This document shows, piece after piece, positions 6,567 through 20,675 of a stretch of 28,455 bases of DNA (its first letter is position 1; every line of letters begins with the position of its first letter). Made by a program: the position numbers and the translations under genes. This DNA comes from a virus: positions 1-28,455 of the IMG/VR virus record IMGVR_UViG_3300043775_000956; one strand, given 5' to 3'. The notes under the pieces were generated by a model. That model searched no databases. It saw nothing but the letters and a program-made list of their open reading frames with translations, and was not told the origin of the DNA.

Positions 6567-6838
6567 TAAAAATTCTCAAACTTAATTAAGCGATCCAGAT
6601 ACCAATTGGCTTTGCGCAGATCCTCGATGCCATTTTTATCTTTGTATCGCCACATGTACTTGAAAATGTTTCCGCGCAAGAATCCACGAAACTCGTCATG
6701 GCCTAGCATTTTCTCCATCGCCAAAATACATTCGTCGCCTTGGTAGTGCTTTGGACCATGCACCGTTTCTACCGTTGATGTATGAACTGAGTCGCCTGTG
6801 AATCCATAATACATCTGCTTTTCTTGTTGTGTAATCAT
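6566..6838 (-). CDS. DUF3310 family protein
   Basis: This 90-residue protein contains the signature of DUF3310 (SaV-like): an N-terminal GPKHYQGDECILAME, then FLRGNIFKYMWRYKDKNG and DLRKANWYLDRLI. The family is common in phages next to nucleotide-metabolism genes; its biochemical role is not settled. A longer frame could begin at a GTG (6898). I choose ATG 6838 because it overlaps the upstream stop as ATGA and has GGAAG upstream, encoded inside the last codons of the preceding gene. Thymidylate synthase lies two genes upstream, which fits a nucleotide-pool setting (inference). Confidence 0.85.
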   Translation of the reverse strand: MITQQEKQMYYGFTGDSVHTSTVETVHGPKHYQGDECILAMEKMLGHDEFRGFLRGNIFKYMWRYKDKNGIEDLRKANWYLDRLIKFENF

Positions 6839-17453: not shown

Positions 17454-17624
17454 ATGCTTACACCAGACGAGATTAAAAACAAACTAAAACCCATGAATGT
17501 GAGTGAAGTTGCACGCTCAACCGACATATCGCGTTTGACGCTACATCGCTTTATCCATGACATTGAAAAGCGTACTACTTACGACATGATCAAAAAACTT
17601 TCAGACTACTTGGAATCGTTATGA
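17454..17624 (+). CDS. Small helix-turn-helix regulator, 56 aa
   Basis: ATG 17454 (AAGGAAA upstream) opens a 56-codon frame whose TGA overlaps the primase start (ATGA). The product contains a Cro/XRE-like helix-turn-helix: VSEVARSTDISRLTLHRFI, followed by TYDMIKKLSDYLESL as in small repressors. At 56 residues it is a minimal DNA-binding domain, probably a dimer. It lies next to the divergent promoters, the classic place for an autoregulated switch protein, and is the best candidate to bind the two operator-like elements (inference). Confidence 0.82.
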   Translation: MLTPDEIKNKLKPMNVSEVARSTDISRLTLHRFIHDIEKRTTYDMIKKLSDYLESL

Positions 17625-19483
17625 GTCAAGAATTACTCGATGCAATCCGTGCGGTTGGATTTAATCCTCCGCCATATATAAAGAACTCAGCCATCACAAG
17701 ATTCCAGACGACTGGCAAGGACAAGTCGGGATGGGTATCCATGTTCGCTGATGGTAAAGGCGCAGCATTTGGCGATTGGAAATCGGGTGAGGTTCACTAT
17801 TGGTTTTTAAACGGTCAAGCATCAGCGAGCGATTATGATCGCGAAGAAGCACTAAAGAAAGCCAAGGAGGAGCGTGACTTTGCTTACGCATCTGCGGCTT
17901 TTAATGCACAAGAGCTTTACGCCAAGTTACCCGCACTTGAAAGCCATGATTACTTAACACGCAAGAACATCAAGGTTGATTCTGGTTTGCGTTTGTATGC
18001 AGATCGTCTTGTTGTACCTGTATATGGCGCAGACGAGCAGATCCAATCATTGCAATTTATTGCAGCAGACGGTGAAAAGCGTTTTTATACCGGTGGAAAG
18101 ATGCAGGGTGGTTACTATGTCATTGGAAATCTGGGCGACACCGTTTTGATCGCAGAAGGTTTTGCAACAGGTATGACACTGCATGAAGCAACCGGTCACT
18201 GCGTAGTCGTTGCGTTCAATGCCGGAAATCTCAAACCAGTGTGCGACATGATCCGAAAAGAATATAAAGGTCGGGTGATTATCTGCGCTGACAATGATGT
18301 GTCGGGTGTTGGCGTTGAGAAAGCCAAGAAGTGTGGGGTTGACGTGCTGTATCCACCAGTCGTGGGTGAAGACTTCAACGACATGGCAATTAACAATGGC
18401 TTGGACTCGGTACACAAGCTGATATGTGGACGCAAACAAGAGTTGTTTGTGTCTGTGCAGGAATTAATGGCTAAGATGAAGCCAGCCGATTGGGTGATAA
18501 AGGATGTGCTGGAACGAGGATCCAGCACACTCTTGTTTGGGGAATCTGGCGCGTGTAAATCTTTAGTTGCTTTAGACTGGGCGTTTTGTATTGGCACAGG
18601 CATATCTTGGCACGGACGAATGACGAAGAAGGGTCTAGTCATCTACATCGCGGGTGAAGGTCATCGTGGTTTAGCTATGCGTATGCAAGCACTAAAACAG
18701 AAATACAGTCGTGATCCAGATAACATCTATTTTAGCACAAAATCCGTGAACATGTTGAGTGCAGATGCGGTGCAACAAATCATCCAGATCATTGCCGAGA
18801 TTACCGATCAAGAACCCTACGCCATTTTTATTGATACATTGCACAGAAACATGCATGGTGACGAGAACTCCAGTGAAGACATGGCAATGTATTTATCCAA
18901 CATCGAAATGCTCACAAAGAAGTACGCCAGCGCAATTGTGACAGTTCACCATAGTGGTCATGGCGATAAAGGTCGTGCGCGTGGTAGCAGTGCAATTAAA
19001 GCCGGTATGGATGCAGAGTTTTGCATGACAAAGAAATCCAAGATGGAAGTGACGTTCTCCTGCACCAAGTCGAAAGACTTTGCGGCAGGTAGCAATATGG
19101 AATTTGGTTTGAAGATTGTGCCGCTGGAAGGGGAATGTTTTTATGATGATTACTTGCAAGAGCAAATTGATGGTGTTTATTTAGAATATGTTGGTGTCGC
19201 CCAAGAAGAAACCACATTGAAACCATCGTCCCAAAAATGTTTGGACGGTCTAAAAAAAGCTATTTCTGCAACGCAAAAACTGGGTGATGGGCGCACACTT
19301 TTGGGTGAGAGGGAATATGTGGTGTCAATTGATGAGTGGCGACCATTTGCTTATGAGGAAATCAAAGGGAATAACAGCAAGTCAAACTCCAATCGCTTCA
19401 ACGAAGGACTAAAAGACCTTGTAAAACAAGAGCTTGTACGACATGATGCTGGGTATTATTGGTTAAACAAAGATGTCCCGTGA
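17621..19483 (+). CDS. Toprim primase / RepA-like replicative helicase
   Basis: The 620-residue protein joins two replication activities. The N-terminal half has a primase-like region (ADGKGAAFGDWKSGE) and a Toprim domain with IAEGFATG (E179) and ICADNDVSG (D224, D226). The C-terminal half is a RepA/AAA_25-type hexameric helicase: a P-loop at 307-314 reading GESGACKS, Walker B YAIFIDTLHRN (D405), and VTVHHSGHGDKGRARGSSAI. The Gly just before the P-loop Lys is Cys (C312), which is unusual. The last ~90 residues (after about 530) are polar and may bind partners. ATG 17621 overlaps the regulator's stop. It is the main DNA replication gene visible; no phage DNA polymerase is in the window. Confidence 0.92.
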   Translation: MSQELLDAIRAVGFNPPPYIKNSAITRFQTTGKDKSGWVSMFADGKGAAFGDWKSGEVHYWFLNGQASASDYDREEALKKAKEERDFAYASAAFNAQELYAKLPALESHDYLTRKNIKVDSGLRLYADRLVVPVYGADEQIQSLQFIAADGEKRFYTGGKMQGGYYVIGNLGDTVLIAEGFATGMTLHEATGHCVVVAFNAGNLKPVCDMIRKEYKGRVIICADNDVSGVGVEKAKKCGVDVLYPPVVGEDFNDMAINNGLDSVHKLICGRKQELFVSVQELMAKMKPADWVIKDVLERGSSTLLFGESGACKSLVALDWAFCIGTGISWHGRMTKKGLVIYIAGEGHRGLAMRMQALKQKYSRDPDNIYFSTKSVNMLSADAVQQIIQIIAEITDQEPYAIFIDTLHRNMHGDENSSEDMAMYLSNIEMLTKKYASAIVTVHHSGHGDKGRARGSSAIKAGMDAEFCMTKKSKMEVTFSCTKSKDFAAGSNMEFGLKIVPLEGECFYDDYLQEQIDGVYLEYVGVAQEETTLKPSSQKCLDGLKKAISATQKLGDGRTLLGEREYVVSIDEWRPFAYEEIKGNNSKSNSNRFNEGLKDLVKQELVRHDAGYYWLNKDVP

Positions 19484-19484
19484 T

Positions 19485-19602
19485 TCCCGACTCGTCCCAA
19501 ACGGGATTCGGGACAGTCGCCCATTATAGTCCCGCCCGTCCCACACTCCCTTTAGGGAGTGGGAGGACGGGAACGGGAATGGGAAGGGAATGTAGATGGG
19601 AA
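19485..19602. repeat. GC-rich hairpins and GGGAA repeats after the primase gene
   Basis: This block follows the primase stop. TCCCGA (19485-19490) pairs with TCGGGA (19508-19513). CCCGTCC (19535-19541) and CACTCCC (19544-19550) pair with GGGAGTG (19555-19561) and GGACGGG (19565-19571), making a strong hairpin with a TTTA loop. A purine tract with GGGAA repeated (about 19570-19602) follows. There is no T run, so it is not a standard terminator. A replication origin or RNA-level element is possible but unproven. Confidence 0.5.
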
Positions 19603-19617
19603 CATTTTTTCTGTTTG

Positions 19618-19626
19618 TGATATAAT
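19618..19626 (+). promoter_or_regulatory. Extended -10 promoter
   Basis: TGATATAAT on the + strand is a perfect extended -10. No good -35 is seen upstream (purine repeats lie there). Transcription would start near 19632-19635, just at the first hairpin of the structured leader. Confidence 0.6.
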
Positions 19627-19633
19627 TTTTTCT

Positions 19634-19743
19634 AGGTTGTGAAAGACCTGCTAAAAGATGAATGATTAAACAAAACCGAATTTATAATCTGAGCCGCTAT
19701 CATTCACGGCAACTTTCACCAGATTAGAAAGACGGTTTTTTTT
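19634..19743 (+). ncRNA. Structured leader RNA with terminator-like 3' hairpin
   Basis: Nested helices are visible: AAAACCG/CGGTTTT (19672-19678 with 19733-19739), TAATCTG/CAGATTA (19685-19691 with 19720-19726) and GCCG/CGGC (19693-19696 with 19707-19710), followed by eight T (19736-19743). A small 5' hairpin (AGGT/ACCT, 19634-19649) exposes GTGAAAG, complementary to CTTTCAC at 19713-19719. TGAATGAT (19659-19666) is complementary to ATCATTCA in the inner loop (19699-19706). It could be an attenuator for the 52-residue gene or a small RNA. Confidence 0.6.
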
Positions 19744-19756
19744 ATGGGGAAAGATA

Positions 19757-19915
19757 ATGGATCTAAGAGATATTTTTGCGGCACATGCGATGGAAGGATT
19801 ATTGGCAGGTAGGGAATATGTGGCGATTGAAAGCGTTTCAAATCTTGCATATATTATTGCAGATAGTATGATTGCTCAAAGAGTAGCACCAGAGCATCCC
19901 GAAGACGAAGAATAA
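19757..19915 (+). CDS. Small conserved phage protein, 52 aa
   Basis: ATG 19757 is preceded by GGGGA six bases upstream. The 52-residue product (MDLRDIFAAHAMEGLLAG ... AYIIADSMIAQRVAPEHPEDEE) matches a pattern I recall from many phage and prophage hypothetical proteins: L-R-D-x-F-A-x-x-A-M-x-G-L-L, then A-Y-x-x-A-D-x-M-x-x-x-R. The function of that family is not known. It stands alone between the structured leader and the large structured RNA, so its level may depend on the terminator-like hairpin just upstream. Confidence 0.75.
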   Translation: MDLRDIFAAHAMEGLLAGREYVAIESVSNLAYIIADSMIAQRVAPEHPEDEE

Positions 19916-20640
19916 GTTTATGCCCACCACAAGCCAGTATTTTTATTTTTGGCGATTTATCAATGGCTGGTTTGTGGCTTGGGTTTAATTATGTTGACAG
20001 CTTGGAAAGACAAGCACTATCAATAAAACAATATGGTTTTGTCACGATGATAACGTGCGCTAAGAGAGTCTAATCAGCTACACCATGTTGTTTTATTGAT
20101 AGTTAATGTGCAGGCTGATGCACAGCGGTAATGGCACGTCGGTGCAAATAGGAAACTTGGGAGTGGTTGAAAGTACACCACCAAATAACACTAAGCCGGA
20201 GTTCAGCACCGGCAACTATCAGATCCTTGTTTAGTCGCCCGCTTAATCAATCTTGTACCGTAGGAAGTTTGGAATTGATTAAATGGGAGTTTTTACACCA
20301 CGTTGTTTGCATCAATGACGTGGTGGTTTTTGCTATCACTAAAAGCATTGCTTGTAGCGTACCGCAATTCGCAACCTTGCAGCCTTTAAAGTGGATAAGT
20401 CGCACTAGCTACGCGATCCACACGGGTTACGGCTACTGGTAACGGTAGTCTACTAATGACATAGGGCAGATTAGAACTGATTGTCATGGGGTAGTAAACA
20501 GTGCTTTTAGTGATAGTGTGGAAACTATCAATCGGTTAGTTGCATTTCCGAGTTACTCCACGACGTACATAGCTGCACACTGTGTACGTCACCTAACTTT
20601 ATAAGTTAAGCGTCCTTTTGAATTTTAGGGTGCTTTACTT
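19916..20640 (+). ncRNA. Large structured non-coding RNA candidate (~700 nt)
   Basis: No supportable protein gene lies here, but the block is packed with complementary arms. Helices seen (5' arm / 3' arm): 19923-19937/19967-19983 with a 2-base bulge; 20000-20004/20011-20015; 20016-20036/20083-20103 (21 bp, one G-U); 20107-20112/20119-20124; 20134-20137/20142-20145; 20157-20167/20177-20184; 20195-20199/20209-20213; 20243-20251/20274-20282; 20296-20303/20318-20325; long-range 20333-20350/20499-20516 (18 bp, one G-U); 20391-20396/20416-20421; 20426-20430/20439-20443; 20450-20461/20482-20494; 20562-20569/20583-20590; 20594-20599/20603-20608. A possible -35 (TTGACA, 19994-19999) with a weak -10 near 20018 could start it separately. 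Size, ornateness, phage setting and place before terS recall the GOLLD/ROOL type of large phage RNAs. I cannot assign it to either. Confidence 0.68.
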
Positions 20641-20675
20641 ATGGATTTATTTTTAGTGCAATCGAGAGGTGGCAG

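Follow-up and report, generated by a model that had tools for sequence, protein, structure and literature searches.

What is the role of the short structured segment at positions 19634–19743, which lies between a primase/helicase gene (17621–19483) and an open reading frame (ORF) of 52 amino acids (19757–19915) in this virus? The window, that is, the whole stretch of DNA analyzed here, comprises 28,455 nucleotides of the 28.5-kb IMG/VR virus record IMGVR_UViG_3300043775_000956. The initial annotation had described the segment as a leader RNA with two loop-to-loop complementarities and a terminator hairpin, and had offered an attenuator, a riboswitch-like sensor and a free small RNA as possible functions. 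Inspection of the sequence located every part that it had named, all of them on the plus strand.

The extended −10 promoter, TGATATAAT, occupies 19618–19626; the first RNA base should therefore coincide with or adjoin the first base of the 5′-end hairpin, P1, and transcription is expected to start at about 19633–19634. P1 (19634–19649) consists of an AGGT/ACCT stem (19634–37/19646–49) exposing the loop GTGAAAG (19639–19645), which is the 5′ strand of the pairing that we call PK1. The exact complement of this loop, CTTTCAC (19713–19719), does sit within the later terminator-like stem, in an asymmetric bulge between the hairpin P3 and the terminator stem P2. The second, 8-base complementarity (PK2) is also exact and joins TGAATGAT (19659–19666) to ATCATTCA (19699–19706), the loop of the innermost hairpin P3 (GCCG/CGGC; 19693–19710). 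P2 (19672–19739) has outer arms AAAACCG/CGGTTTT (19672–78/19733–39) and inner arms AATCTG/CAGATT (19686–91/19720–25), and is reached from PK2 through the linker TTAAACAAAA (19666–19675), whose columns are near-invariant in alignments A1 and A2 and whose residues A72–A75 could base-pair with the four U at the start of the T-run. The eight T that had been noticed just before the 52-residue gene form a T8 tract at 19736–19743, the predicted 3′ end of the terminated RNA, and the ORF starts after a 13-nt Shine–Dalgarno-like spacer, ATGGGGAAAGATA (19744–19756). The product of this ORF weakly matches the C-terminal part of PHROG 2201 (unknown function) and has no match in Pfam. In this single sequence, complementarities like PK1 and PK2 would arise by chance in about 0.5% and 0.2% of shuffles, respectively, and the nested fold of the leader beats most shuffled sequences (z = −2.0).

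Starting from IMG/VR relatives of the window terminase and primase, with further members added by pattern scans, we found homologues of the leader in many IMG/VR loci, comprising 45 distinct units and 34 distinct RNAs. The 5′ hairpin, both loop complementarities, the terminator and the T-run are all present in about 34 distinct relatives, a T7–T8 tract being kept in all members, and the relatives are predicted to adopt the same nested fold. We applied the refuting test that the initial annotation had proposed, a loss of both complementarities in homologous leaders, and its reading withstood this test strongly; the first alignment already displayed both loop pairings kept through complementary changes. 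In a hand-made table of 21 members, in which cell counts are inflated by the relatedness of the members, 147 of 147 PK1 cells and 162 of 168 PK2 cells were paired, and the pairing strands took the form of 11 distinct 7-mers and 17 distinct 8-mers, a diversity that is difficult to account for unless pairing is under selection. In an unfitted MAFFT alignment (A3), which covered 12 close members, 97% of cells were paired, with 55 double-change cells against 18 after shuffling; in these relatives, PK1 was paired in 100% of cells, with double changes at four of its seven pairs, and PK2 in 96.9%, with double changes at six of eight. An alignment of 27 members to a covariance model (A5), which is biased towards the nested helices and not towards the pseudoknots because the latter are absent from the model, gave 96.1% paired cells and 148 double-change cells versus 39 after shuffling. 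Among the nested helices of these 27 relatives, P1 had changed on both sides at all four pairs, and double changes were found at all four pairs of P3, at 6/6 pairs of inner P2 and at 3/7 pairs of outer P2. Beyond the linker, hardly any unpaired position is conserved, and the loops vary freely. Together, these results confirm that 19634–19743 belongs to a conserved phage RNA family with two covarying pseudoknots.

The own duplexes of PK1 and PK2 average −7.9 and −5.7 kcal/mol, versus −1.7 and −0.9 kcal/mol for swapped partners, indicating that the pairings of different alleles are largely mutually orthogonal. A scan of 2.0 Mb of loci for the architecture (TATAAT, P1, PK1, P3, PK2, P2 and T-run) returned 30 distinct instances, all of them family members, and none in a reversed-sequence control; since these loci are family-enriched by construction, the scan is a test of specificity only. 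Several pattern matches were set aside because the architecture was absent (L148/L156, L178, L180–L182, L183, L186–L188, L191 and L192), as were antisense covariance-model matches at the same sites, which reflect the palindromic terminator. At the curated gathering score, Rfam 15 had no match in the window, and below that score nothing credible covered the leader; nor did Rfam match the RNAs of 10 type I loci, as we call the window-like members, where a tRNA was the only match, or in nine loci of the type II subfamily described below. As far as the open-licence literature and Rfam reach, the family is previously undescribed.

A second subfamily emerged when we searched for the 3′ signature common to the units (T-run, ATGGGTAAA, ATG) and subsequently for the architecture, which led to loci L225 and L255; a targeted scan raised the number of type II loci to 11 (L225, L255, L324 and L328–L335). 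In these RNAs, the P1 loop is, for example, TTGGTCG and pairs with CGACCAA, PK2 measures 5–7 bp, the terminator stem is GC-rich, almost invariant and 17 bp long, an extra small hairpin is present, and the TTAAACAAAA linker is missing. All 333 cells were paired, and double changes occurred at 13 pairs, a value that no shuffle reached. Types I and II thus share the same double-pseudoknot topology with almost no sequence in common, and common descent appears plausible. Type II units precede HNH endonuclease or replication genes; among their downstream products are an HNH endonuclease and also a DUF1376 protein. In locus L200, at about 6713–6830, we also observed another structured leader, in which a TATAAT is combined with a long terminator and the start codon is preceded by T7-ATGGGTAAA; the two pseudoknots are absent from it, and it is perhaps another leader type sharing the 3′ module.

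The arrangement of the units bears on the function of the RNA. An exact TATAAT lies 5–8 nt 5′ of P1 in 43 of the 45 distinct units, and an ORF of 25 codons or more opens with an ATG 9–17 nt past the T-run in 39 of 43, versus 7% expected from spacer shuffling; the consensus following the T-run is AT(G/T)(G/A)GTAAA-n-ATG. An upstream micro-ORF and translational coupling were considered and dropped because the reading frame that begins at this ATG varies among loci. Promoter, structured 5′ leader, U-tract terminator and a gene in the same direction thus follow one another as in an attenuator leader, and the fixed spacing from promoter through RNA and terminator to start codon favors this part of the earlier proposal; its alternative of a metabolite sensor is unsupported, as discussed below. 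The tie that had been drawn to a single 52-residue family did not generalize, since the RNA precedes many unrelated genes. Downstream of type I units, we found the 52-aa family (the weak PHROG 2201 match), a family of 104–109 aa that matches nothing in Pfam or PHROG, three HNH endonucleases, one GIY-YIG endonuclease, one AP2/HNH fragment, two Rha proteins, an AntA/AntB antirepressor, a ParB/MT-A70 protein and several small ORFs. These downstream genes are unrelated accessory genes without a common pathway.

We therefore favor, with a probability of roughly 0.6, the interpretation that the element is a cis-acting transcription-attenuator leader of a phage accessory gene, with the terminator stem at the core of a double-pseudoknot fold; such a leader probably limits or controls the switching-on of the gene behind it. 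Host RNA polymerase would start at the TATAAT promoter, at or beside the first base of P1. P1 would fold first and P3 second, whereupon the P3 loop would pair with the upstream strand to give PK2; the P1 loop would next pair with the strand immediately 3′ of P3 to give PK1, and the arms of P2 would close over the T8 run. Because PK1 adjoins the 3′ arm of P2 and PK2 adjoins the 3′ arm of P3, two coaxial stacks, P2-PK1-P1 and P3-PK2, would be natural, and the layout suggests that the A-rich linker joins them, running from PK2 across to the foot of P2. Termination at 19743 would release the majority of transcripts as a compact RNA of about 110 nt, which is probably abundant, and read-through would yield an mRNA whose start codon lies 13 nt further on, the fold presumably setting or gating this read-through. 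Folding of partial transcripts found no antiterminator helix common to the family, which suggests that termination is probably the default state, and the stem stops before the Shine–Dalgarno-like spacer, so that control should be on transcription. A plain hairpin would suffice for constitutive attenuation, and the elaborate fold therefore hints at a further function. An RNA family new to Rfam that fuses two independently covarying pseudoknots to a transcription terminator, and that aquatic phages have reused, would represent a compact genetic switch of new topology if the fold gates termination, and it may make it possible to study how phages take up accessory genes and insulate them.

Some copies count against attenuation, and they also lend weight to its main rival, a free trans-acting small RNA. 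According to this explanation, promoter, RNA and terminator constitute a gene of their own, the compact product binds a protein or an RNA of phage or host, and the ORF is a passenger. At least two type I copies have no co-oriented gene at the usual place: L197 is solitary and convergent with a lysozyme gene, and in L173 the RNA is followed by a tRNA gene; in L087/L090, merely a tiny ORF lies behind the RNA. A product of about 110 nt that is bounded 5′ by its own promoter and 3′ by a T8 terminator, and a fold kept while the sequence varies, would also be expected of such a gene. The A-rich linker together with U8 raised the idea of an RNase- or Hfq-type small RNA. However, a free RNA gene would not need the ATG that is so regularly placed behind the T-run, and freely varying loops leave no conserved single-stranded seed. 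Moreover, three copies are present in one 41-kb phage and two in each of two others, numbers that are lower bounds because IMG/VR contigs are fragmentary, and the alleles differ within each of these genomes, arguing against a common target sequence for the loops. We consider a free small RNA possible but unlikely.

The behavior of the RNA in closely related phages adds a further consideration. Between L098 and L101, the upstream sequence is 95% identical, the promoter 100% and the downstream sequence 100%, versus 75% for the RNA; between the window and L088, the corresponding values are 93% upstream, 80% downstream and 50% in the RNA. Conversely, the RNAs of L105 and L004 are 100% identical in flanks that share 27% (upstream) and 36% (downstream) identity. 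These contrasts indicate that phages exchange and pass on the RNA as one unit, decoupled from the gene. L179 combines the PK1 of the window with the PK2 of L085, showing that PK1 and PK2 alleles recombine as well. The replacement of the RNA alone in L098/L101 is again compatible with a free small RNA, and the free exchange of alleles at one site could be a sign of a trans-acting specificity role, which would count against a purely cis-acting attenuator. In one speculative scenario, to which we assign a low probability, types I and II would make up one broad class of phage RNAs whose PK1 and PK2 are an exchangeable, mutually orthogonal specificity code, and the terminated RNA would act in trans on the same-allele leader of a co-infecting phage by partner swapping, leading to allele-specific exclusion or to self-limitation of the accessory gene. 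Such a code would account for different RNA alleles in identical flanks of near-identical phages, and the allele swapping thereby poses a testable question of RNA-based specificity among co-infecting phages.

The same exchanges, above all the identical RNA in the unrelated flanks of L105/L004, and the many different genes found behind the RNA would also be expected if the unit were a mobile promoter–terminator cassette that aids accessory-gene shuffling, with the fold merely a robust terminator; in L160, L168, L169 and L196, the unit is embedded in antisense orientation between late structural genes. The PeSL elements of T4-type phages, in which a composite promoter and a terminator stem-loop accompany accessory-gene shuffling (Arbiol 2010 and Comeau 2014, as cited in PMC4503421), resemble the present units in all three features as far as the citing passage describes them, although the phages here are not T4-type. 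That passage of PMC4503421 makes no mention of pseudoknots, whereas the RNA here carries a covarying double pseudoknot. Neither shuffling nor termination requires two pseudoknots with compensatory changes in two subfamilies, making this explanation rather improbable.

A ligand-sensing riboswitch, in which an aptamer is merged with the terminator, would fit a pseudoknotted fold joined to a terminator ahead of a gene. It is very improbable in our estimation: few unpaired bases are conserved besides the linker, which type II lacks, and the absence of both a conserved antiterminator and a pathway common to the downstream genes leaves a metabolite sensor unsupported. An RNA antitoxin binding the downstream-encoded protein, as in type III toxin–antitoxin or AbiF systems, where promoter, structured RNA, terminator and protein gene follow in the same order (PMC12373285), is the least credible explanation because the downstream proteins are unrelated and, in Pfam and PADLOC scans, include no ToxN/AbiQ/CptN/TenpN or Abi_2 toxin, because one RNA allele is found with different proteins, and because the RNA contains no tandem repeat (none of about 33–36 nt in window positions 19600–19760). 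The RCd22-AbiF leader of the C. difficile phage phi027, a structured RNA of 98–132 nt that has its own promoter and a Rho-independent terminator, which is rarely read through into the gene (PMC12373285), is nevertheless the nearest tested analogue in operation, with promoter, structured RNA, terminator and gene in common. RCd22-AbiF and type III RNAs have repeated motifs and one cognate toxin family, whereas the RNA here has another fold, no repeats and unrelated downstream proteins. Without repeats and a cognate toxin family, membership in the RCd22-AbiF/type III group fails.

The lambda pR′ leader (6S RNA) and the c4 RNA of P1/P7 are short phage leader transcripts that end before downstream genes, and c4 RNA acts through antisense pairing; we know of no double-pseudoknot fold in either that is equivalent to the present one. 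No Rfam match to c4 (RF01695; c4 is listed in PMC2864571) was obtained, and the complementarities of the window lie within the RNA and are not directed to an outside target. The put RNA of HK022, a phage leader of about 70 nt with two stem-loops, acts in cis on RNA polymerase and suppresses termination (PMC9378689); by its published description, it is without the two loop pairings, and the element here ends in a terminator. T4 homing endonuclease genes are held down by 5′ RNA structures that mostly hide the ribosome binding site (PMC2988022), whereas the stem here ends before the Shine–Dalgarno region. The SAS/ESAS elements of cluster K mycobacteriophages, a 13-bp repeat that in some cases has 17-bp inverted repeats upstream (PMC3203893), also recur as conserved elements immediately ahead of assorted phage gene starts, but they are sequence repeats and not units of promoter and T-run, in contrast to the sequence-variable fold described here.

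We also searched for the host and for relatives of the phage. BLASTN of the region, the L184 contig and a stretch of L158 against 50,697 annotated phages returned nothing, and no cultured relative is therefore known. When 84,980 species genomes of bacteria and archaea were scanned for the pattern, five matches were obtained, only one of which was real: L179 (CAKZJE010000053.1, 54.6 kb), a phage-like contig binned in a Methylomonas MAG, carries the RNA, and its primase and terminase are homologous to those of the window. In 670 draws of genomes from the order and class of that MAG, a covariance search yielded the L179 copy and one false match only. This single contig provides no more than a lead towards a methanotroph host.

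Several other features of the neighboring sequence were observed. To the right of the 52-aa gene, about 750 nt without long ORFs (19916–20660) precede a small-terminase-like gene (from 20676), beyond which lies the large terminase gene (from 21182). Since pieces of 19916–20660 recur in other phages with their order and number changed, the stretch looks like several structured modules and not one fixed RNA. It includes a segment of about 200 nt (20335–20535) closed by the long stem CTATCACTAAAAGCA ... TGCTTTTAGTGATAG, whose identity reaches 100% in some relatives and which others lack, and a 22-nt inverted repeat with 95% identity (20016–20037/20082–20103) that forms hairpin arms. A possible 22-aa hydrophobic peptide, MPTTSQYFYFWRFINGWFVAWV, is encoded at 19919–19987, and in L087 and L090, sequence near-identical to this region lies directly 3′ of the leader T-run, replacing the 52-aa gene. 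On the other side, between the primase stop and the promoter, the sequence at 19500–19600 is rich in GGGA/TCCC and contains the hairpin ACTCCCTTTAGGGAGT and short GGGAAC/GGGAAT repeats.
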